Shown piece after piece: positions 3,073 to 23,955 of a stretch of 23,955 nucleotides of DNA; within the stretch, counting starts at the first letter, position 1, and every line of letters starts with the position of its first letter. Origin of the DNA: Sergeia podlipaevii. Taxonomy: Eukaryota; Euglenozoa; Kinetoplastea; Trypanosomatida; Trypanosomatidae. A program made the position numbers and the translations under genes. Location of the stretch: positions 1 to 23,955 of the forward strand of contig JASANZ010001909.1 of assembly GCA_030849805.1 (NCBI GenBank). Reading direction: 5' to 3'. The notes beneath the pieces were generated by a model. That model did not search any database. It was not told where the DNA came from and saw only the letters and a program-made list of their open reading frames with translations.

Positions 3073-4194
3073 TTATCGCACGAACGGCCGGATGCGCTGC
3101 CGCTCACCTATCACAGGGGCAGCAACGTGAGTGTTTTGGCCATCCCCTTCCACGCTAGCAGCAGCGGCTGGTTCGGTTCTCTCGCTGCGTTCTGTGAAAT
3201 TGTCTACTAAGCCACTGTTACACACCTTGCTACCACGTTCCCCTGTTGTATCTCGAGCGCTGGCGGAGGTCAATTCACCAGATGGCACCGGAGCCTCATC
3301 CTGCACAGCAGAGCTAAACTCATCGGCATTGGCGCCATCGATGATGACTGGGCGCTTCGAGTACGACAAAGAAAAGTAGTCGGGGGGTAAGTTCTTTACG
3401 AAGAATGCGTGCTGGGCAACCTCGTCCAGAGTTGGGCGATCCTCTGGCCGAGTAGAGAGCAGCCACATGCACAGGTCTATGGCTTCAGGGCTAACGTGGG
3501 CTGGCATAGGCGACACCTCCCCATGGCGGATTCGTTTGATGAGCACGTTGGTGTCTGTTGACGATCCAAAGGGGAAGTTGCGTGTGAGGAGTGTGTAAGC
3601 AATACAGCCCATCGACCATATATCTGCGCGAAACGCATCGTAGTTGCCCAAGAACACCTCTGGTGCTAGGTAAGCAAGGGTGCCCGTGAGAGTGTGTGCG
3701 TACTCGTTCGCACGAGCTTGGAAGTTGCTCTCACGGTGTAGTCGACTAAGGCCAAAATCAGAGATCTTAAGAACGCCATTTGTGGTCAAAAGCAGGTTCT
3801 CAGGCTTTAGGTCCCTATGCGCCACGCCATTCCGATGGCACGTACGTACACCAGCAACAAGCTGAATAAACAGCGCTGCAACGTCTTGCTCAGCAAGAGG
3901 CTGCTGGCGTGATGTAATGAGCTCGCAAAGGTCCCCGCCCATAACTGGTTCTAAGATAATGTAGTAGTTGTTACTGCTTTCCAGGATTTCAATAAGTTGT
4001 GTGATGTTTCGGTGTTTCAGGCGGCGCAAGATGGAGATCTCCACTCGAACATCGTTCGCAACCCTTTCGTTTGACTTTGGAATAATCTTCGCTACAAACA
4101 TCTTCCCAGTAGGAATGTGGCGCACGCTCTTGACCTTGCTATAAGCACCTTCGCCCAGCGTGTTTAGTATCTCATATTCACCAACACGGCCCAT
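3073..4194 (-). CDS. Serine/threonine protein kinase, CAMK-like
   Basis: A 373-aa protein with a complete kinase domain at residues about 7-266: glycine loop GEGAYSKV (14-21), ATP-binding Lys36 (VAK), helix-C Glu52, catalytic loop HRDLKPEN (126-133), DFG (146-148), a Thr/Ser activation segment containing T168, T170 and T172, and APE (177-179). All catalytic residues are present, so it should be active. The KISDFGLS, GTLAYLAPEVF and DIWSMGCIAYTLL blocks look most like CAMK/CAMKL (SNF1/CHK1-type) kinases; subfamily and substrate are unknown. The C-terminal 105 residues are acidic, Ser/Ala-rich and probably disordered, with no recognised domain. The first in-frame ATG is at 4194; the frame continues upstream without a stop through the splice-signal T-run but has no earlier ATG. 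Confidence 0.92.
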   Translation of the reverse strand: MGRVGEYEILNTLGEGAYSKVKSVRHIPTGKMFVAKIIPKSNERVANDVRVEISILRRLKHRNITQLIEILESSNNYYIILEPVMGGDLCELITSRQQPLAEQDVAALFIQLVAGVRTCHRNGVAHRDLKPENLLLTTNGVLKISDFGLSRLHRESNFQARANEYAHTLTGTLAYLAPEVFLGNYDAFRADIWSMGCIAYTLLTRNFPFGSSTDTNVLIKRIRHGEVSPMPAHVSPEAIDLCMWLLSTRPEDRPTLDEVAQHAFFVKNLPPDYFSLSYSKRPVIIDGANADEFSSAVQDEAPVPSGELTSASARDTTGERGSKVCNSGLVDNFTERSERTEPAAAASVEGDGQNTHVAAPVIGERQRIRPFVR

Positions 4195-5858: not shown

Positions 5859-7160
5859 CTATAAAACATTAGGCAACAGATACTGCATAGTCACCAATGT
5901 TAAGTCTGGATTCTGGGACGACCAAGGCTCTCCAAAAAAGTTTTGCAACCTCGACGGGAACTTTGGAGAAATAATTGTTAGCCCATGCAAGGCGTCTCGT
6001 AAGACAATGCCACTCTTTTCCTTTAGTTTATACAGCGGTAAGATGAGGAGCTGTGCTCCGTTGTCTGCAGACTTCTTCGCTAGAAACTTTTGGTACTTGC
6101 GAGCAAAGGTAGATTTGTATTGATTGCTCAAAGTACAGCCACGATTTTCTTTACTCAAAATCCTTGAATTCCAGCAGTATGTAAGTTTATGCGTATTGTG
6201 GTCTAAAAGTACCACCGTCTGTGCCCTCTTTCCAATAAGCAGGCGGTCCTCAAGCTCTCGACTGTAAGTTTCAAACTCTCTTTTGAACCTATATGTGGAC
6301 GCGGATTCAAAATTACCCAAACATGATGTCACTACCACATCACTGCTCTCATACAAGTTGATTGATCCCAGTGCGTCAGTCATGCTCATGGGGTCTTTGC
6401 AAGTTCTGTAATAGTCTACAAACAGTAGCCGCTCACCACCAGTGATCCTCTCAGCGTGCTCAAGGACACTATCGGCAGAGTACTGGTCTTTGCCATCCGA
6501 GAAAAAGAAAAAATCGCCAGTAGTAGTAACAACGTAGGATATGCGATGGTGTGATCCTCGGTCAATAATAGACGGGGTTCCACGTAGCAGATGCACGAGC
6601 ATCGCTTGAATACTTCTAACAATGGAATCACCACTAAAGACGAGCATTGTCACGTTATAGCGATTTCGGACAAGTTTTAGGCGTGCACGTTCAAGAAGCG
6701 CGGTCCGTAGATCCTGGGCGGAAAGCGAACATTTAGAGCTAACCAAACCCTTGCCGCGCTCATATACAAAGTTAGTTAGGTTGAGCTTATCACTAACGCG
6801 GCATTTCCGTATACGTGCCGTTGCGTCCGCTGTGAGTAGAGTAGAAGTGCTCTCAGGTTGAATGACTGTCTTCCAGCGACCTGCAATGTAAACAAGGCAT
6901 TCGTTTTGCCCAACCAAGGATGTGGTGTCGCATAATGTCGGCTCCCACACATCACTGTTGTACAAAGCACTTTCGCTGTGATTAAAAGCGCTAGTTACAT
7001 ATTCTGTGTAATTTGCATGAAGACTTGCATCGCAGTTGATGCAGAACGGATCATCAGATTGTGGCGGAATGAAGTTCTGAGACGCCAGCAGATTAAAAAA
7101 GATGCCTAGTGCAACTATCGCAATTAGCGAAACAAAGTGTCCAACAAAACTGTGATTCAT
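5859..7160 (-). CDS. Type II membrane protein with SGNH/PC-esterase-like domain
   Basis: A 433-aa protein with a six-residue cytosolic tail, one membrane segment (residues about 7-26), and a luminal or extracellular region with five N-glycosylation sequons (2, 50, 60, 127, 169; the first lies before the membrane). The luminal part shows the signature order of SGNH hydrolases: GDS at 177-179 within LVFSGDSIVR (Ser179 the putative nucleophile), a Gly-Asn pair at 282-283 (SCLGNFES) and D389xxH392 near the C-terminus. A GDS block followed by a late DxxH is typical of the PC-esterase (TBL/Cas1p N-terminal) acyl-esterase families, some of which O-acetylate glycans in the secretory pathway. The overall sequence is not one I recognise, so substrate and activity are unproven. 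It is the first gene of the leftward transcription unit, directly at the strand-switch region. Confidence 0.7.
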   Translation of the reverse strand: MNHSFVGHFVSLIAIVALGIFFNLLASQNFIPPQSDDPFCINCDASLHANYTEYVTSAFNHSESALYNSDVWEPTLCDTTSLVGQNECLVYIAGRWKTVIQPESTSTLLTADATARIRKCRVSDKLNLTNFVYERGKGLVSSKCSLSAQDLRTALLERARLKLVRNRYNVTMLVFSGDSIVRSIQAMLVHLLRGTPSIIDRGSHHRISYVVTTTGDFFFFSDGKDQYSADSVLEHAERITGGERLLFVDYYRTCKDPMSMTDALGSINLYESSDVVVTSCLGNFESASTYRFKREFETYSRELEDRLLIGKRAQTVVLLDHNTHKLTYCWNSRILSKENRGCTLSNQYKSTFARKYQKFLAKKSADNGAQLLILPLYKLKEKSGIVLRDALHGLTIISPKFPSRLQNFFGEPWSSQNPDLTLVTMQYLLPNVL

Positions 7161-7164
7161 CTTC

Positions 7165-7205
7165 CTAAAATGTTCATAAGTTCAAAGAAAAGAGATAGAA
7201 AAAGA
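7165..7205 (-). promoter_or_regulatory. Candidate spliced-leader acceptor for the membrane protein
   Basis: The minus-strand pyrimidine tract 7205-7183 is followed by a TTTTAG at 7170-7165, leaving only 4 nt before the ATG. An out-of-frame minus-strand ATG lies at 7177-7175, just before this AG, so splicing at 7165 would remove it. Confidence 0.5.
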
Positions 7206-7393
7206 TACACCGAGGAACAGCGCAAAGGCAACAATAACAACAACAAAAATGTTTATACAGTCCAAGATTACAGTATTTTCGCTATTAAGAAAAGCAGTGA
7301 GTCCAACAAACAAGTTTGTATTTGCTTGTCCTCAAAGCGCAACAGCTAGTATGATTATGTTTGGTCCCTTGGCGGCGCCATGTTTGTACCAAG

Positions 7394-7416
7394 CCCCCTC
7401 CCCCCAAAGCCCGCCC
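7394..7416 (-). promoter_or_regulatory. G-quadruplex-type motif in the strand-switch region
   Basis: Read on the minus strand: G3-C-G3-CTTT-G6-A-G5, which satisfies the usual four-tract G-quadruplex pattern with short loops. It is on the sense strand of the leftward unit. Confidence 0.75.
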
Positions 7417-7487
7417 AACGCACACGGCTAAGGGAAAATGGTTGTTTTCTACGGAGTACCAGGGTTTACAATTGCTCTTCTGAAGGC

Positions 7488-7500
7488 GGGGGGGGGGGGG
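7488..7500 (+). repeat. G13 homopolymer in the strand-switch region
   Basis: Thirteen consecutive G on the plus strand, flanked by GGC and CGG and preceded by GGG at 7462-7464. It is the longest G run in the window and lies on the sense strand of the rightward unit. Confidence 0.95.
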
Positions 7501-7671
7501 CGGATGCACAAACCTACAGTGTGTGTAACTGGAATGGTTATGCAGTACCATGTTGCTCTTCGCATATGCATTGCTGTGAACTACGTTAATTGAGGTGTCC
7601 TGGTAATGTAGTTATTATTTTTCGTGTTTCTTTATATTTTGTGTTTTTTTTCTTCTTACTTAAATTTTTCA

Positions 7672-11535: not shown

Positions 11536-12417
11536 ATGAAGGCGCTTCTTGCCACCGCTGTAGGTTTGACCGCCTCGAGCTGGTATAATAGTGTGTCTTC
11601 AACTAGTACATTGTGCGCTGGTGGGAGCAGCAGCAGCAGTCCCTTTTCCCAGTCTGAATTTCGCTCTTTTCCTCTCATTAACGTCTACGATGAGTCACAC
11701 AATACAAAGGTGTTTCGCTTTGCATTGCCTGGGGCCGATATGCCACTGAACTTAGAGGTTGCGTCCTGCATTTCCGTGCGGTACGTGTCCAAGGACGGCG
11801 GCGAGGTTATTCGCCCTTACACACCGATCAACCGCAGTGATCAACTGGGCTACTTTGATATTATGGTGAAGAAATACTCAGGGTCCAAGATGGGAACACA
11901 CCTGTTTTCACTGAAGAAAGGCGACACGATCGATGTCAAAGGCCCATGGGTGAAGCTGCCTATCAAGGCTAACCAGTATGCTCGGATTGGAATGATTGCG
12001 GGTGGCACCGGCATTAGCCCAATGTATCAAGTCGCTAGAAATGTTCTTCGAAGTGCGAAGAACACGACCGAGGTGAGTCTCCTTTACGCAAACCGCCGCA
12101 AGGAAGACGTGCTGCTTGGCAACGAGCTGAACGAGCTCATGGAGACGTACCCCAAGTTTTCTCCTTATTTTGTTCTCTCTCACGCCCCTTCTGATTGGAT
12201 GGGTGGTGTCGGCCACGTGAACAAAGAGATGATCCGCTCCCTCATGCCTGCCCCGAATCGTGCTAGTGATTCCATCATTCTTGTGTGCGGCCCTCCCCCT
12301 TTCATGGAGCTCATTTCTGGCGATAAGGACTTCAAGAGTAAGCCACCGACGCAAGGAGAGCTCCGCGGTTACTTGAAGGAACTGGGCTACATTCCTAAGA
12401 TGGTGTTTAAGCTTTAA
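11536..12417 (+). CDS. NADH-cytochrome b5 reductase, copy 1
   Basis: A 293-aa flavoenzyme of the ferredoxin-NADP reductase superfamily. After a short hydrophobic or presequence-like N-terminus and a Ser-rich linker (1-36) comes the FAD domain, with RPYT at 93-96 and the GSKMGTHLFSL block (116-126). The NADH domain follows, with GGTGISPM at 156-163 and CGPPPFM at 251-257, so the FAD- and pyridine-binding motifs are intact. The enzyme passes electrons from NADH to cytochrome b5 or a similar one-electron acceptor for lipid desaturation or other reductions. An N-terminal anchor suggests the mitochondrial outer membrane or ER; the choice is inference. It is followed 1.07 kb downstream by a paralogue in the same orientation, roughly half identical by eye, so the pair is a tandem duplication. 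Confidence 0.93.
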   Translation: MKALLATAVGLTASSWYNSVSSTSTLCAGGSSSSSPFSQSEFRSFPLINVYDESHNTKVFRFALPGADMPLNLEVASCISVRYVSKDGGEVIRPYTPINRSDQLGYFDIMVKKYSGSKMGTHLFSLKKGDTIDVKGPWVKLPIKANQYARIGMIAGGTGISPMYQVARNVLRSAKNTTEVSLLYANRRKEDVLLGNELNELMETYPKFSPYFVLSHAPSDWMGGVGHVNKEMIRSLMPAPNRASDSIILVCGPPPFMELISGDKDFKSKPPTQGELRGYLKELGYIPKMVFKL

Positions 12418-13491: not shown

Positions 13492-14367
13492 ATGAAAGCA
13501 CTTTTAGCTGCTACAGTCGGTATGGTTGGCGCAAGCTGGTACAACACTCGCTCCGACGCGCAGGCCTGGGGTGTCGCCTCGACCCCCGCCTTCTCTCAGA
13601 AGGAATTCCAGACTTACAATCTCGTGGAGGTGACCACGGAGAGTCACAACGTAAAGCGATTTCGTTTTGCCCTTCAGAACAAGAATGCTCCCCTTGCTAT
13701 GCCTGTTGCGTCTTGCATTACCCTCCGCTACACCGACGCCAAGGGGCAGGAAGTAACGCGTCCGTACACCCCCATCAACCATCCTGATGATAAGGGGCAC
13801 TTTGATCTTGTCGTCAAGTGCTACCCCAATTCAAAGATGGGTGCGCACCTGTTCAGCCTCAAGGCTGGAGATCACGTTGAGGCGAAGGGCCCCTGGACGA
13901 CGTTTGCCATTTCCCCCAGCAAGTATTATCGCATCGGCATGATCGCTGGTGGCACTGGTCTTACCCCAATGTTCCAGATCATCAACAGCGTGCTGCACCA
14001 GCCCAAGAATGAAACCCAGATCTCGCTCCTCTACGCCAACGTCACGAAGGATGACATCCTTCTTGGCAACGAGCTGGATGCTTACATGAAGGAGTTTGCT
14101 GGCAAGTTTGCCACTTACTTCTGCCTTGAGAAGCCACCAAGCAAGTGGACGGGGTACAGCGGTTACATCAATAAGGTAATGATTCGGGAAACGATGCCTG
14201 GCCCCGAGCACAAGGGCGACTCAGTGATCCTGGTCAGCGGCCCCCCGCCTTTTATGAAGGCCATCTGTGGTGAAAAGGACTTCTCTTCCATGCCTCCGAA
14301 GCAAGGTCCGCTCGGTGGTATCTTGAAGGAACTTGGCTACCAGGACGGGTACGTATACAAGTTCTAA
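13492..14367 (+). CDS. NADH-cytochrome b5 reductase, copy 2
   Basis: A 291-aa paralogue of the preceding gene, sharing the opening MKALLA...ASWYN and the whole two-domain fold. The FAD motif RPYT (90-93), the NSKMGAHLFSL block (113-123) and the NADH motif GGTGLTPM (153-160) are intact. The cysteine that normally opens the CGPPP motif is Ser249 here (codon AGC at 14236), giving SGPPPFM. In this superfamily that cysteine contacts the nicotinamide side and tunes hydride transfer; a serine would be expected to slow the enzyme rather than kill it (inference). Codons look more GC-rich at third positions than in copy 1. The two copies may differ in expression, acceptor or location. Confidence 0.92.
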   Translation: MKALLAATVGMVGASWYNTRSDAQAWGVASTPAFSQKEFQTYNLVEVTTESHNVKRFRFALQNKNAPLAMPVASCITLRYTDAKGQEVTRPYTPINHPDDKGHFDLVVKCYPNSKMGAHLFSLKAGDHVEAKGPWTTFAISPSKYYRIGMIAGGTGLTPMFQIINSVLHQPKNETQISLLYANVTKDDILLGNELDAYMKEFAGKFATYFCLEKPPSKWTGYSGYINKVMIRETMPGPEHKGDSVILVSGPPPFMKAICGEKDFSSMPPKQGPLGGILKELGYQDGYVYKF

Positions 14368-15250: not shown

Positions 15251-15613
15251 ATGCTTCGCAGAACGCCCCTATACTGGTTGTTCTCTAAGCCCATCACACA
15301 GGGATACATTTCTCAGCTGCCAACTCCAATGGGCCCTTCCAACGGGAAAAAGTGGGGTCGCGCGATGGATGCTAACGCGGATGTGCGCGGGCTTTACACC
15401 CCAAGCGCGGAGCGGTACGATGAGTGGTACAAGGCCACCTATTGTATTGAGGACCTTAGTGATGGCAGTGCGGCTTCTGGCGCGAGCTCTAATAAGTCTC
15501 TGGATGACACGGCGAATATGAAGCAGGCTGCTGAGGAGTATGACTTGGAGGGAGTGATGGAAGAGATGGAATTTTGGTCGCAGGAATTTAATCACTCAAC
15601 GGTGGTGCGATGA
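15251..15613 (+). CDS. Small conserved-looking protein, probably mitochondrial
   Basis: A 120-aa protein I do not recognise. The N-terminus (MLRRTPLYWLFSKPITQGYI) is basic, hydroxylated and free of acidic residues, as in mitochondrial presequences. The centre is Gly/Pro-rich with Trp and Tyr (PMGPSNGKKWGRAMD, 26-40; RYDEWYKATY, 55-64). A Ser/Ala-rich linker (69-85) leads to an acidic helix (EEYDLEGVMEEMEFWSQEF, 95-113). There is no membrane segment and no known motif. The size, aromatic content and presequence fit an accessory subunit of a mitochondrial complex (respiratory chain or mitoribosome), but that is inference. Coding is supported by GC content and codon regularity clearly above the surrounding spacers, and by an ATG directly after an acceptor signal. 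Confidence 0.75.
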   Translation: MLRRTPLYWLFSKPITQGYISQLPTPMGPSNGKKWGRAMDANADVRGLYTPSAERYDEWYKATYCIEDLSDGSAASGASSNKSLDDTANMKQAAEEYDLEGVMEEMEFWSQEFNHSTVVR

Positions 15614-16119
15614 GGGGTTTCTCCAGGTCTTATCTTCCCCCCCCCTCTCTTCATCTTTTTTTGTATTGATTTAGTTGGGGTTATGGTGGTGGTCGGTCGG
15701 TCGCTGGATTTCTTTCCTTTTTTTTTTTTTGCATTTGTCCTTTGAGTTTCTTTCCTTTTTTTTTTGTTGTTGTTGGTTGTTTTCTCTGTTGTTTGTTCTT
15801 TTGCTATTGTTGATATTGTTCGTTACATGTTGCGTACGTAGCAGAGAGATCGCGACTCGTTCTTCATTGTTATTATTATTATCTAACAAATGAAGACACG
15901 CATACACATACACACACACAAACGAGAACTAAACAATGCTGCGACTTAAAAAAAAAAGCGTACGAGAAATGTCAAGGCGCCGAGTATTTGGATTTTCTTC
16001 TTTTCTTTCTACCTACTTTCCCTCTTGCGCTCATTGAAGTAGTGTGTTATTTCTGCCTTGCCCTTTCTTACCTTTTTCCCCCCTTTTCCATCATTCATTT
16101 CTTTTTTTTTTATATGAAG
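15614..16119. other. 3' UTR of the 120-aa gene and pyrimidine tract
   Basis: T-rich sequence with GTT/TTG runs, a CA repeat around 15900-15920, and a strong pyrimidine-rich stretch at about 16045-16111 that precedes the predicted acceptor of the next gene. No gene is seen. Confidence 0.65.
16045..16119 (+). promoter_or_regulatory. Candidate distal spliced-leader acceptor for the CCCH gene
   Basis: A pyrimidine-rich tract (16045-16111, ending in a T-run) is followed by the last ATG before the gene (16114-16116) and the first AG at 16118-16119. From here to 17528 the plus strand has no ATG, so this AG marks the 5' end of an upstream-AUG-free leader of about 1,409 nt. Confidence 0.5.
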
Positions 16120-17528
16120 TTTATCTCCGTACTGAATCTCTAAGGTTCACACTACAGATCTGTGTGGAGCTTCTTGTCATTTATCAACAACATAATTTTT
16201 TTTTTTAAAAAAGAAGAATATATAGAGAAACACACACACACATCAAGGAAGCGCTTCACATTGTTTGTTAAAAAAGTGTTTGTTAGCTTTTTGTTTTTAA
16301 AATTCACTACTTTGTAGAAAAACTTAATAGTATAAAGGTAAAAGAAGTGAAGAAGAAAAAAATAAAATATTGTGAGAAAGAGAACCAAGCAAGCAATCAA
16401 CCACAAACATTGTACGCTAAGAAACAAACGTGGAATCATTTTTTTATTTTCTTTTTTAAAATAGGCGTCCGATAAGCGTGAAGTCCGGAAAAGGAAAGGG
16501 GAAAAAAAAAAAGAAACACATCAATCATTTTTTTTTTTTCTTTTTCTTCTTCTGTTTATTTTTGCTCCTTTTACAGCGCCAAGGAACTACAGCGTATATC
16601 TCAAAAAAAAAAAAAAAATTGCACTTAATAGAAAGTGAAAAAGTGAGGGAATAGTTGGAATAGACATTTTTTTTTTTTTTTTTCTGCTAGTGTGTGTGTG
16701 TTTGTGCGTTTTTTTTTTTATCTTTTTTTTTTTTGGTGCTGTCGTGGTTGCTGCTTCAACAACGTCGCTTCTGGAGGACTTTTCAATACATTTGTTCTCC
16801 GTTATTATTATTTTTTTTGTTGTGCTTTATTTTCCAAGTGGTAGATACACAGCGCATCGCTTCAAGGCCAAAGAGACTTACACACTCACTCATACACACA
16901 CACACACGCACACAGAACTGAAACAGCTCAAATAGCTGAGCTTTCTCTTGTTTCTTTTTCTCTCTCTTCTGCTTCTATCAGCTTGAAATTTTTTTGTAGG
17001 TTTTTTTTTCGTTGGTGCTTCATTTTTTCCCCTTCACAGGTGACTATTTCACCATTTTTATTACTATATTGTTATCATCAATATCATCTTTAGCTCTAGA
17101 CACAGCTCCATCACATCTCCGCATTTTGGAGCTTCGTCGTCTGCATTTCAAAAGAGAAGGTGATTTTTTTTTTTTCGTAAAAATATAGTAGATCAATAGG
17201 AAGCTACACACAAGTCGAAAGGCGACAGAGAAAAATCAGCAACATCGGAAACGAAAATTCAGAAAGAAACGAAGGCGGAAAGAAAAGAAGAACAAATAGG
17301 TGAGTCAAGCGTTTCACATATACGTTTATCTCCCGTCCAGATATAGTTTAAAAGTCTTCTTTGTCTTTGGTATCCTCATCTTGCACCAGCATACATACAT
17401 TGCAAAGGAAGAAAACAAACCAGCAAAAAAATAAAGTCGAACCAAATCAAGCCGTCTCTCTCTCCCACCAAAAAAAAAATATCTACATCAACAGCCAAAC
17501 CGGTTTTTTTTTTTGGAAAAAAAAAAAG
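16120..17528 (+). promoter_or_regulatory. Predicted 1.4-kb ATG-free 5' leader of the CCCH protein mRNA
   Basis: No ATG occurs on the plus strand in this interval, while CAT (ATG on the other strand) occurs about 26 times. It includes an A16 tract (16603-16618), a T17 tract (16667-16683), a CA repeat (16893-16913), several other T-runs, further pyrimidine-AG sites (T12 at 17164-17175 with AG at 17187-17188; AG at 17339-17340), and a T11-GG-A11 palindrome at its end. One-strand loss of ATG over this length is best explained by selection against upstream start codons in a real leader. Shorter leaders from the internal acceptors are also possible. Confidence 0.55.
17504..17527 (+). promoter_or_regulatory. 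T11-GG-A11 palindrome abutting the start codon
   Basis: T at 17504-17514, GG, then A at 17517-17527, one base before the ATG at 17529. In RNA this can fold as a U-A hairpin at the start codon. The T-run plus AG at 17527-17528 could also act as a trans-splice site with no leader beyond the spliced leader itself. Confidence 0.6.
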
Positions 17529-20500
17529 ATGATTGGAAACACAAACTTCTCTATCCAACCACACGGAAACGCTATGCAATTTGCGGTGCCTGCCACTAGT
17601 GCTAACCAAGACGGTGGTGACAGCAGCAGCAAGACTAGCAACATTCACTTAATGCATAATAATATGCCCAGCTATCCAAGTATTCCTCACGATTACGCTG
17701 TAAACCCACAGCAGCATCAGCAAAGGATGGTGACGGCTGTGTCAGGCGCCAACGCCTCTGTCACACTTCTTCCCGTGAGTAACACGTCTCTCAACGTTCC
17801 AGGCGGAGGTGAGACTCGACCAACACGGTTTTCACATATCAGCCTGTTTGAGACTGGTACGACGGTGAAGCCTGATGAGACGACGATGGTCCCGATGATG
17901 ATGATGGTGCCGCAGGTATGCGGACCGGTCTCGCAGCAGGCGATGCTGTTCCCACAACAAGATCAGTCGCCTCAACAGCAGCAGCAACAGCTGCTGCCCC
18001 ACGATGCTTTGCTCAATAGTGGCGCCAACCACCACAACATCACCCGCAACAACAGTAACAGCAATGGCGCGGCGGTGGCGGCGGTTTCTAATGCTTTTCC
18101 CCAGTGCGTTTCGCCAATACCACTGCAGGACGCTGCCACTATGCAGACATGGCCTGTGACGACTGGCTCTCAACAACAGCAAAGTGCACTCCGCTCCTTC
18201 CCTACCACTGCAACGAGCATGCTGGCGGACGATGACGGCTGGAGCTACTGTGTAAGTAGCCTTACAGCAAGCACAGGACTAATGCGTGTGGTGGGCACCG
18301 GCAACGGCCCGGTTGGGACGGATGACGTCATCAGTAGTATGGACGTCGATCCTGATGATATGGATGAGGACGAAGCGGACGCGCGGGCGGCGATTGCTGC
18401 CGTAAACGAGATGGTTGGTGCAACCGGTGTTGGTGGTAGTGGCGGCGGCGGCGACGATAATTCTGCCTTCTTGGTAGAGCCTCACAACCTCGAGTACTTC
18501 TCCGGCATCACGCAGGATCTTCATGTGGATGACGAGAGTGATCAGTTCCAGGGCGATGAAAGTGAAAGCTCTCCGGCGGTGATGTGTCTCCCTACGTGTT
18601 CAACGGCGGCGGCGGCGTGTGACACTCCTTTTCCAGCTGCGCTTGCTTTTGTCAGCGGGGGTGATGCCGCGACGACCGTCGGAACTTCCCGTGCTGCGGA
18701 TGCGGGTAGGCGACGGGGTAGCAGGATGGCGACGACGACGACGACTAACCCGCTCGCGTCCTCCTCGCTGGACTCTTCTCTAGTGGCGGGGGAGTTGAGT
18801 GCGCATTCGTATCCACACAACAACATCAACATCAACATTAACGAGCTTGCTTCACTGAGTGGCACGAGCGTGAGCACGGCTGGTGGACAGCGAAACACGC
18901 ACATTCACCAAGATGCGCCACTGCAACTCTCAGGTGGACAGTCAAGACGGTTTTCTGGCGCATCATCCCTTAATCCTGTTCTGGAGTCCTTCCGCTCTAT
19001 GATTCGCCTTACCAACACAGAGGGAAGCAGCCAGTTGACGTCCAATACGAACGCCATTGCCTCTTTCAACAAGGATCTCATTGGTAATGGCACGAGGCTC
19101 AATGGTGGTGGTGGTGGCGGTGAATGCAGCATGCAACCCCTATTGCTGAGTCCGTCGAAGCTTGAGAAGTCAAGCGCGACCCAAAAGCTAAATTTAGCTC
19201 CCAACCTACCGGATCACTACTATTTGCCGGCGCAGCTGCAGCAGCAGCAGCAGCAGCAACAACAGACCGTGGCTCACCCTCAACAGGCCTTTGGAGTTAT
19301 TCCTTCTATCGGTGCTCTCCCGCAACACAGCTCCCTCAACGGCCCCCTTGGTGGTAATGCAAGTCCGATGACGGAGACGTTCGCCAGCACAGGAGGAAGC
19401 ACCCACACTCTTCATTCACCCGTCTTGCTGCGCTCGCTGACGCAGCTGGCCTCTTCACCGAACGGCACGAACGCCATGTCTACCCAAGAGCTTTCCTCAC
19501 AGCAGCAGCAGCAACTCACCTCTACCATGAGCGATGCCGCAGCCTCCCTTGCCTTCGTTCGTATGGGGCCGTTTGAAAGTACATTCACAGCCCTCTCACA
19601 CGTGGGCAGTGGTCCTGATGACACCTTTACCCTTCCCCGCGCCGCCGCCACTTACAACGGCGGTGAGGCACTCCAGCAGCGTCTGGACCGCGGCGGCTGT
19701 GTCGCTGTTGTGGACCCGCAGCGGCGCAAGCTGCGCGTGCCAAGCTTCGCCATTCAGCCCACCAAAGCCTTTAATGGCCGCCTGGCAACCCCTTCGCTGT
19801 GTCTGCTTTTCCAGAGCGGCAGATGCCGGCAGGGTGTGAACTGTTACCAGGTCCACGCCGACCCAGAGGTCGTTCGCGCGCTCCGCGTGCAGGCCGAGAG
19901 CCAACCCTGCTGCTGTGCGACACACGGCGATTGCAACGAAAGCATGTGGGACGTACGCGTCTATGAAGCGCAGGTGATATCGGTGCTGTCCTCTTCTGGC
20001 GCACCCACGGTTGCCCCTGCTGCTTCTGCTGTTGCTCCTGCTGCACTTCCTAATGGTGGCTGTGGTGGTGCCACTGTCTCTCCCACTACACAGAAGATGC
20101 CGGCACAACCCTCGCTTTTTATTCCCATGAACCGACTTGCGTACACTTTAGGATTACAGAAGGTACTTCAAGAGAGCAAGTTCACGGTTCCCGTGTCGAC
20201 GCTGTGCCGCCTTCATGGACAAACGGGTGGGTGCCGCTTTGGATCTGACTGTAAGTTTCTGCATGTGTGCCGTGAGATTCTACAGCAGGTGCACTGTGAA
20301 CCTAACGCAGGACCACCTTCATCCTCCTCTCCTGCCTCCACTATATCTCCATCGCAGCCGCCACACATTACCGGCCAGCGAAAGGGGACTCCTTCGGGGA
20401 TGACCACCACGATTGCTACCACGAGTACATCCGCGGTTCAACCTCCTGTGATGAACACCACAACGGCAGCTGCGATGTGTTCCTCCAACTGTGGCACCAT

Positions 20501-21182: not shown

Positions 21183-23955
21183 GGTGGTAGAATTGCACAG
21201 TATAGTGCGTACACACACACACACACTCACACAAACACACATATATTCGCGGGGAGGGGAGGGGGAAGGAAGGTGAATACGGAGTCGCCACTCTCTCTTG
21301 CTTAGCTAGTGTGCTCATAAAGGAGTGGCAATGGTGTAGTACTTGTGAGGAGGAGGATGAGTATATGTGTGCTAGTGGCGGAAGATGCTGAGAAGGGAGG
21401 GGGCACGTAATGCAACTGGTGTATATATATAAATATAATTTATTGCGAGAGAGAGAGATCACTATTCCTTTTTTATGTATTTGATCTGTGCTTTTTGGTA
21501 GAGCTGTAGTCTCTTTCACCACTTCAATTTTTTTTCTCTTCTTTCTATCTTCTTTATATATTTGTATAGATAGATGGCATCAACAGTGGCCATCACGAAG
21601 CACAATTGATTTCTTCTTTTTTTTGTTGTTGTTGTTTTGGTGAGAAAAATGCTTCTTTCCTCTTTGATTCCTTTCACATATATATATTTATTACACCTCC
21701 TCCTTACCCCGCGATTAACATGCTTTGCTACACGGTGTTTCTGAGCGATACGGAGGAGCTTCACGGTAGACTCTCCTGCTTTGAAAAGAAGAAAGGGGAA
21801 AAAGTAAACGATAATATATATATACAAAAAGGGTAAGATTAGTAAACGAAAAATAATACTTAAAACATGAGAAAAACAAACGAAGCTAAAACAAAAAAAG
21901 CGGTTTCGACTTTTATCTTCTTGATTTTTTTTTTTATTATTATTACTTTACACACAGCTCACCATAAGACGTGAGCAAGTGCGCCTTCTTGCATGTAGAC
22001 TTGAATTAAGACTTTGGAAGAACGAGAGAGAGGGAGAGAAAAGGGAAAAAGAGGGGAAATGCGTAGAAAAAGTTTTTTTTTTTTTTTAAATAGTGAATAC
22101 GAGAAACAACAAAAACGACAAGCGGGAAATGATATCGAGCAAAAAAAAGAAAGGGGTGTGAGGGCACCTCATTCATGCGTGCCAAGTGCGCGCGCTCTCT
22201 CTTTCTTTTGCTCCTTCCCGTCTCTTCGGTAACTAACATTTCTTTTTTTTTCTTTTGTTTTGCTTTGCCGTTTCTTTCTCGTTTGTTTTGCTCATCTTTA
22301 TGCTCAGTAGATCATCATATATGTATGGACAGCGTATTTATCATCATTACTATTAGCATTGTTATTGCTATTGTTGGTATTATGGGTATATTTACTGAAA
22401 GACTGCTTTTCCTTCCCACCCCACACCCCCCTTTTTTTTTGCCATGCTTTTTATTATTATTTATTTTGCCACTTTTGCTGTGTTACGTTATTGTGTGATT
22501 TTTGTTGTTGTTGTTGTTCACCGTACTCTAACTATGGGGTTGATTTTTTTTTTCTCTGTTGCCTTCTTTTTGTTCCACTTTTTTTTTAAAAGTGATATTG
22601 CTCTTCTTATTTTTTGATGTTTCAATTTTTGTTTTGTTTCTGTAGTTGTTTCACAATCGTGTTATGACCATACGAAATTTGCTGCTGCTACACTGAGTGG
22701 CATGACAGATGCAACAGTATTATTACTATTGCAATTATGTCTATGCGTGAGTGAATATGCCTGCGTGTCTTCCTTTTTTTTTTGTGTGTTTGTGTGTGCA
22801 CGCGCAACTTTTCGATATATGTATGCTGAACAATATTCAGTATTTTTTTTCTCCTATTATTGTTATTATCATTATCATTATTATTATTCCTTTTGAAGTT
22901 TATATCGTATATGCAAGTGTATATGTACATATTCATCTTCGTATAGCTGTGAGCTTTAAAGAAAAAAAAAAGAATATGTCTTGCTATAGTTGTGGGGGTG
23001 GCTTGTGGGTTACCGATTCCACAGTTCTCTTTTTTTACTTGCTTTTTTTTGTAGAACACTTTTTTTTTCTTATCTTGGCTGATTTTTTTTTCCTTTTTTT
23101 TCTTCTTCTGCGCAATTGAGCTCCATTCTCTCTTTTTTTTTTTTAAAAAAAGGAAGTTTCTTTTCCTTTACGAGAAAACTACATGCAGATCATTTTTTTT
23201 CCCTTTGTTTACCTTCTTCTCTCTCTCTCTCACACACACACACGTCTATGCGCGTGTGCCTATCCAGTAACGAGGAGAGAGAGAAATATATATATATGAA
23301 GGCGGTACGTAAATCCTTTTCCTTATGTCATTAATCCAATGCTTAATTAGCAATTAACGGAAAGATATATATATGGCGTGGAGGAGGAGGAGAAAGGAGG
23401 GAGAGACACATGAAATGTGTGTGTGTGTGAGAGAGAGAGAAGGACTGAGTGAACATTAATGCATGCGTGAGCGGATATTGTATCAATAGTTTTTCTTTCT
23501 TTTGACTCATGCTTGGGATGTGTCTTTATTTTTTTGCTGGTCCCACCTCTCTCTCCTCCCCTACCCTCTTCTGCTTCTCTTTCGCTTTGTTGATCTTTTC
23601 TGTTCTTTTTTTTTTCTTCATTATGATCTCTAATTTTTTTTTCTGTTAGCTTGTTTGTTTGGTAGTATACCGAGTTGGCGCGAGGGCATTCAGATCGAGA
23701 GGAGAGAGAGAGATAAAGAGAGAAAAAAAAAATGAATGCGAACGAGTGTGTGTGTGTGTGTGTGAATCTGCGCGTGTGTACCAAACTCACGTACTATACA
23801 AATAGCGTTGTGTGTGTGTGTGTGTGTATGTGTGTAAACTAGTGTCGGCATTGGAGGTTTTTTTTTTCTAACGGGGAAAAAATCTGGTATAGAGAGAAAG
23901 ATGTTTGCATCGGTTGACTAAAGCGAGATATTTTATTAGTAAGATCTTCTATATA
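21183..23955. other. Noncoding 2.77-kb tail: CCCH-gene 3' UTR and intergenic DNA
   Basis: No credible gene on either strand to the window edge. The plus strand is T-rich with many pyrimidine tracts, microsatellites (CA near 21211-21242; TG/GA at 23415-23440; TG at 23745-23764 and 23808-23834) and A-rich islands (21840-21900, 22014-22150). Open frames are translations of low-complexity DNA. Continued T-richness fits ongoing rightward transcription, with the next gene beyond the window. Very long 3' UTRs are common for trypanosomatid RNA-binding-protein genes. Confidence 0.65.
23415..23834. repeat. TG and GA microsatellite cluster
   Basis: TG runs directly into GA at 23415-23440; further TG tracts lie at 23745-23764 and 23808-23834, and a GA-rich stretch at about 23698-23722. 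They are noncoding. Confidence 0.9.

Follow-up and report, generated by a model that had tools for sequence, protein, structure and literature searches.

A putative kilobase 5' leader free of upstream AUGs before a CCCH zinc-finger gene of Sergeia podlipaevii, and comparable ATG-free runs before other RNA-binding-protein genes

The window, that is the whole stretch of DNA analysed here, is an entire contig (C210) of 23,955 nucleotides from the 23.4-Mb genome of the trypanosomatid Sergeia podlipaevii. Its six main open reading frames (ORFs) between 7590 and 21182 all lie on the plus strand and form a same-strand array. The protein at 390-1229 matches over its full length the uL22m chains 7aih, 7ane, 6hiv and 7aoi (484-553 bits), which we take to belong to kinetoplastid (Leishmania, Trypanosoma) mitoribosomes; a PDB search with the kinase at 3073-4194 returned many generic kinases. 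At 7160-7590 the ORFs change from the minus to the plus strand, perhaps in a divergent transcription start region. Two adjacent FAD/NAD-binding oxidoreductase genes (11536-12417 and 13492-14367) are alike in N-terminus and length, and are perhaps a tandem duplicate. The array ends with a CCCH zinc-finger gene, whose surroundings hold the following features:

15251-15613, plus strand: upstream ORF of 120 amino acids, from the ORF list, without a match in Pfam or a convincing one in PDB
16117-17528, plus strand: ATG-free stretch, taken here for the CCCH gene's 5' leader (5' UTR) on account of its zero ATG count, shuffles and the intergenic rate
17504-17527, plus strand: U11-GG-A11 tract (T11-GG-A11 in DNA), a predicted A-U hairpin directly before the start codon
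17529-21182, plus strand: coding sequence of 1217 amino acids, glutamine-rich (9% Q), with two CCCH zinc fingers (ORF; zf-CCCH match)
19800-19856, plus strand: first CCCH finger, CLLFQSGRCRQGVNCYQVH, amino acids 758-776, found by pattern
20205-20264, plus strand: second CCCH finger, CRLHGQTGGCRFGSDCKFLH, amino acids 893-912, found by zf-CCCH match and pattern

The finger pattern C-x7/8-C-x5-C-x3-H thus occurs twice in the 1217-residue protein, and to judge from this pattern the protein is likely to bind RNA. Its zf-CCCH match scores 26.9 bits in the genome search, above the cut-off, and 20.2 bits for the whole protein, just below the cut-off of 20.5. A protein-database search for orthologues with residues 770-960 returned none that scored, and the 120-residue upstream ORF found no match in a plasmid collection. 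Between the stop codon of that ORF (15613) and the start codon of the CCCH gene (17529) lies an intergenic gap of 1.9 kb.

An exact count over 16117-17528 gives no ATG on the sense strand, as the initial annotation of the window had stated, and 27 CAT, for which its figure of about 26 was right in substance and off by one. The flanking ATGs are found at 16114 and at the start codon itself (17529); their spacing of 1415 nt is the largest of the window, fourfold over the next (333 nt), and the maximal spacing of CAT is 345 nt. Upstream of the ATG-free zone, 15614-16116 contains 6 ATG in 503 nt (12 per kb), a lower density than the roughly 20 per kb of sampled far intergenic DNA. In another triplet, we note that no plus-strand GGG begins within 16648-18292 (spacing 1646 nt), an interval that spans part of the leader and extends into the coding sequence.

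Two null models were applied to the absence of ATG. The dinucleotides of 16117-17528 itself predict 11.6 ATG, an expectation that is lowered by the purge; in dinucleotide shuffles, the comparison that the initial annotation had suggested, none of 5000 was ATG-free and the lowest count was 3. Intergenic DNA sampled beyond 300 nt upstream of the other genes' starts has a G after 22.7% of its AT, so the 88 AT of the leader would give 20.0 ATG at that rate, with P(0)=1.4e-10; this second null is blind to local composition. The earlier estimate of about twenty ATGs by chance is therefore reproduced under the intergenic rate and is too high under the stretch's own dinucleotides. Taken together, the shuffles and the sampled intergenic rate disfavour chance or composition as an explanation.

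The loss is specific to one strand and to one triplet. CAT is in slight excess (27 against 20.6 expected; at least 27 in 280 of 5000 shuffles), and because it is not depleted, strand-neutral causes such as mutation bias or avoidance of a DNA motif are ruled out. Near-cognate start codons are not depleted either, with observed and expected counts of 11 and 10.2 for CTG, 23 and 9.4 for GTG, 28 and 30.9 for TTG, and 7 and 11.0 for ACG. The stretch thus has the composition of an AUG-purged leader; a leader regulated by upstream ORFs (uORFs) would carry at least one upstream AUG, and there is none.

We compared the stretch with 61 other co-directional upstream regions, which come from the window and from parts of contigs C576 (160 kb) and C575 (40 kb), in total about 1% of the genome. 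There, the observed/expected ratio of sense ATG is 0.21 at 0-50 nt upstream of the start, 0.36 at 50-100, 0.53 at 100-200 and 0.84 at 200-300, and approaches 1 beyond 300 nt, with CAT staying at 1.0-1.13 at all distances. This profile is the signature expected of 5' leaders that are usually 100-300 nt long. Moreover, the five largest plus-strand ATG gaps in the 160 kb of C576 (887, 633, 591, 564 and 459 nt) all end at a start codon. Together, the depletion near starts and the gaps ending at starts make an ATG-free run before a start codon a usable footprint of a leader in this genome.

As a background for such runs we used ORFs of at least 150 amino acids on the C576 and C575 samples and in the window, 71 genes after dropping two CCCH genes and the genes without a defined run; ORF calls were mechanical, and several of the CCCH and RRM ORFs described below run off the 3' end of the DNA retrieved. 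The median run is 184 nt and the maximum 887 nt, and no run of the 71 reaches 1 kb. Long intergenic DNA was rejected as the cause of long runs: where a background gene has 1200 nt or more of upstream DNA (16 cases), its ATG-free run measures between 34 and 887 nt.

The AGs of 15614-17528 were scored by their upstream pyrimidine tract, and among the sites with a score of 10 or more the following stand out as predicted trans-splice acceptors:

16050-16111, plus strand: pyrimidine tract of the predicted distal acceptor, with the top tract score (47.4)
16118-16119, plus strand: predicted distal acceptor AG, score 47.4, 1409 nt before the start codon
16575-16576, plus strand: predicted internal acceptor AG, score 34.6, leader of 952 nt
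16775-16776, plus strand: predicted internal acceptor AG, score 31.2, leader of 752 nt
16980-16981, plus strand: predicted internal acceptor AG, score 27.8, leader of 547 nt
17038-17039, plus strand: strongest predicted internal acceptor AG, score 36.8, leader of 489 nt

The AG at 16118-16119, preceded by the tract at 16050-16111 as in a trans-spliced 5' UTR, has the highest score of all, and the ATG-free zone does begin at an AG after a strong tract, where the initial annotation had placed it. The last upstream ATG (16114-16116) sits between tract and AG, and use of this AG would consequently leave it out of the mature mRNA. Only 2.2% of random leader positions have a strong acceptor as near as this zone edge has. 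Of the alternative acceptors proposed previously, 17188 scores 12.8 and 17528 scores 11.0, and 17340 is absent from the sites scoring 10 or more; the much stronger internal AGs at 16575, 16775, 16980 and 17038 had not been named.

The coincidence of zone edge and acceptor does not generalize. Across 14 long leaders, the mean rank of the zone edge relative to acceptors is 0.40 (0.5 by chance), with a rank of 0.022 or less in three, the CCCH gene at 17529 included; the edge of an ATG-free zone was thus rejected as a general acceptor marker, and with ranks so near chance, the neat edge at 16118-16119 may be partly luck. Likewise, taking the one acceptor with the top score in a region predicts its leader poorly. 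A metagene built on such acceptors over the 61 regions has a weak contrast (9.0 against 14.3 ATG per kb), with 33 of the 61 predicted leaders devoid of ATG; for the 3161-nt region before the CCCH gene, the choice falls on an AG that lies 2363 nt upstream, some 85 nt ahead of the 120-residue ORF, with 19 ATG downstream of this AG. Two short patterns from the spliced-leader exon had no match in the assembly; the SL gene may have escaped assembly or have a different sequence.

The initial annotation had proposed an uninterrupted AUG-free leader of about 1.4 kb. The purge, specific to strand and triplet and extending from the best acceptor to the start codon, agrees with this; a single form does not, as the four strong internal acceptors make it probable that nested shorter isoforms occur. 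A stronger version of this idea, to which we give somewhat less than an even chance, is that most mRNAs use internal acceptors, mainly 17038-17039, and that the form spliced at 16119 is minor or stage-specific; selection against AUG would then concern either a minor form or many acceptors taken together. The strength of the internal sites speaks for it, as does the limited reporter work in which the tract nearest to the AUG is usually preferred for trans-splicing (PMC6597758, in the part available to us). However, the distal tract has the top score, and 16120-17040 by itself is ATG-free in only 1 of 3000 shuffles: this disfavours a leader confined to the final 490 nt or so, and suggests that the upstream-spliced forms matter for fitness.

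Long runs recur before related genes. A genome search with the CCCH protein identified three paralogues, on C564, C254 and C505, with ATG-free runs of 1968, 864 and 368 nt, respectively; the dinucleotides of the first run predict 23.4 ATG. A further CCCH gene lies on C455 and is preceded by 2932 nt free of sense ATG (C455:48822-51753), where 34.0 are expected from its own dinucleotides. The ATG that bounds this run at -2932 is an immediate start-stop (ATGTGA), and beyond it a single further ATG (-3737) is found before -4350. The C455 run exceeds the 1.4-kb leader in length. CCCH genes on C403 and C227 have runs of 867 and 537 nt.

For a set of RNA-binding-protein genes we combined CCCH and RRM genes. 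The zf-CCCH search of the genome gave 16 matches in 15 genes as read (two C399 matches fall in one gene); 14 of these 15 (C455:40153 was left out) and the paralogues on C254 and C505 make up the 16 CCCH genes, a copy of the window being omitted. The ten RRM genes, a small set, were hand-picked from 91 matches as high-scoring, with open frames of up to 345 amino acids, and were chosen before their upstream DNA was looked at; their runs measure 279, 1603, 273, 714, 197, 391, 512, 217, 605 and 118 nt. The 1603-nt run belongs to a gene on C224 (minus-strand reading, start at 0-based 2962), at a locus whose next gap is 128 nt.

Runs of at least 500 nt precede 10 of the 26 RNA-binding-protein genes and 4 of the 71 others (Fisher p=2e-4; Mann-Whitney p=2.4e-4), and 9 of 25 when the CCCH gene at 17529 is set aside (p=5e-4); 13 of the 26 have runs below 300 nt. 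Counts in fixed windows, which are independent of the ATG-free run itself, point the same way. At 300-600 nt upstream, the RNA-binding set has 11.7 ATG per kb (12.2 without the CCCH gene at 17529) against 19.1 in the background, and at 600-900 nt 12.7 (13.4) against 20.2; in these windows the CCCH gene C576:156991 belongs to both sets, and the far windows cover part of the 26 genes. Among the genes sampled, long AUG-purged leaders are therefore enriched on genes of RNA-binding regulators, and not exclusive to them. Outside this class, an 887-nt run (C576:79711-80598) stands before a gene whose product has a C2CD3-like N-terminal domain, and the genes at C576:56570, 132044 and 115631, with runs of 633, 591 and 564 nt, have no Pfam match in the parts scanned.

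Such cases outside regulators would suit a passive history, in which proximal splice sites were lost or weakened, the leader lengthened and AUGs were then purged, its length serving no regulatory role. In a genome search that skipped simple repeats and common words, the leader DNA has one other match, of 46 nt at 84%, which is compatible with such an origin. We nevertheless think it less likely than not, given the enrichment of long runs on RNA-binding-protein genes; keeping a long leader free of AUG would also require constant purging, and a shorter leader would be spared this cost. Both this account and the predominant use of internal acceptors overlap with a long, purged leader, so that the likelihoods we assign to the three do not sum to one.

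Two further explanations fare much worse. That an ordinary short leader happens to adjoin upstream DNA free of ATG through luck is highly improbable: the stretch is indeed G-poor (224 of 1413), with few ATG predicted from its own dinucleotides, and both strands of a 23-Mb genome could yield a few such gaps, but this one lies on the sense strand and terminates precisely where a real gene has its start codon, its P ranges from about 1e-5 to 1e-10, and longer cases with higher expectations exist on C564 and C455. Just as improbable is a separate AUG-free non-coding transcript or snoRNA-type cluster between the genes, for which the gap of 15613-17529 is long enough and holds several acceptor-like sites, but which would give no reason for the loss of ATG on one strand up to the exact start codon; no Rfam family reached its gathering score in the window.

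We thus consider it likely that 16117-17528 bears the footprint of a 5' UTR that is very long, trans-spliced and purged of AUGs, and that belongs to a group of such leaders enriched in post-transcriptional regulators. The footprint, its specificity for strand and triplet, and its recurrence are observed; the transcript ends, scanning and regulation are what we infer from them. In some molecules at least, the polycistronic pre-mRNA would be trans-spliced at 16118-16119 or close by; in others, internal acceptors, for example 17038-17039, would be used. To reach the AUG at 17529, the small ribosomal subunit would then scan as much as 1.4 kb, and every AUG along the leader would be removed by selection, since each would open a repressive upstream ORF. 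The leader may in this way constitute an AUG-silent landing strip for RNA-binding proteins, with the choice of acceptor setting the share of it that each mRNA carries; the two together would render translation of the regulator tunable without uORFs. Less certainly, it is the tracts in which the leader is rich that may bind regulators.

These tracts are more frequent in 16117-17528 than in ordinary leaders, with 6.4 against 3.6 poly-T runs per kb and 6.4 against 2.2 A-rich purine tracts per kb. As the counts of poly-U, A-rich purine and UAUUUUUU elements vary among the other long leaders, no shared element is claimed. Pooled over 14 long leaders (14,650 nt), ATG is at 0 against 145 expected, by construction, and no other triplet is comparably low: the observed/expected ratios of 1.05 for CTG, 0.97 for TTG, 1.04 for ACG and 2.19 for GTG indicate that near-cognates are not avoided, and ATA (2.01) and ATC (1.34) are raised relative to the background (1.47 and 0.89). 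The initial annotation had suggested that such a leader could host control by protein or structure. Predicted folding gives mixed support between the halves of the leader, with a z of -1.1 for the 5' half (16120-16824; 4 of 20 shuffles as good) and -3.8 for the 3' half (16825-17528; 0 of 20), so that structure does not emerge as a clear part of its action. The A-U hairpin at 17504-17527 has a stability within that of shuffles (z -1.0; 33 of 200 as good), and no tandem repeat was detected in 15600-17600 at the tool's threshold.

How unusual the leader is depends on the yardstick. The initial annotation had called it far longer than typical, which holds against our median run of 184 nt and against 5' UTRs in Leishmania major, whose median is 233 nt when primary sites are taken and 547 nt with all sites, and less so against an L. 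major range that reaches 7252 nt (PMC4538839). In Trypanosoma congolense, the median 5' UTR is 127 nt and its length correlates with the number of uORFs (r=0.88); a depletion of AUG near the coding start has already been noted in trypanosomes (PMC6084854). In T. cruzi, the median 5' UTR with repressive uORFs is almost three times the average, no general correlation between 5' UTR length and translation efficiency is reported, and only AUG uORFs, not near-cognates, associate significantly with low translation efficiency (PMC7059621). Models for three trypanosomatids give a lower translation efficiency with an AUG in the 5' UTR (PMC12304876). In the parts of these sources available to us, the 5' UTRs of T. 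brucei, T. cruzi and T. congolense accordingly show the same direction of selection as here, against AUG and not against near-cognates (PMC7059621, PMC6084854, PMC12304876). AUG depletion close to the coding start is therefore not new; the departure lies in length. Whereas the longer leaders of T. congolense and T. cruzi normally gather more uORFs, the kilobase leaders described here carry none and break the trend.

Candida albicans also has long leaders, which are not known to be trans-spliced. They are 1.1-3.0 kb in EFG1, WOR1, UME6 and CZF1, master regulators as well, and an effect of the leader on translation is reported for EFG1, UME6 and WOR1; the accessible part of that source does not present AUG purging across a gene class (PMC6034079). 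Closer by, the T. brucei mRNAs of ZC3H20/21/22 resemble the present case in having long untranslated regions on mRNA regulators; there the very long part is the 3' UTR (excerpts of PMC6597758), whereas the long part inspected here is on the 5' side, and AUG-purged. The titles and abstract openings of open PMC papers that we searched do not describe AUG-free kilobase leaders for trypanosomatid RNA-binding-protein genes. We put forward, tentatively and with more doubt than confidence, that in this trypanosomatid a whole class of tandem-CCCH and RRM regulators carries kilobase AUG-purged leaders, up to about 2.9 kb long, which would act as a 5' layer of control where the acceptor chosen and the proteins bound along an AUG-silent scanning track set the output of the regulator. 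It would be a 5' counterpart to the known long 3' UTRs of such genes.

Gene control in trypanosomatids is almost wholly post-transcriptional, and to our knowledge little is established about how the regulators themselves are controlled. The published work that we found on them, as far as its accessible parts go, gives most of its attention to 3' UTRs. The recurrence of ATG-free runs before several RNA-binding-protein genes suggests that unusually long leaders are kept free of false starts. An AUG-free run ending at a start codon provides a footprint of the 5' UTR that needs sequence only, usable in genomes without RNA data, and can flag regulators whose 5' side merits dissection. Kilobase leaders without ATG would also permit a strict test of long-range scanning, the background genes having no run of this size. 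On the other side of the CCCH gene, the 2773 nt that follow its stop codon (21183-23955) contain no ORF longer than 147 amino acids, and are perhaps a long 3' UTR cut by the end of the contig.
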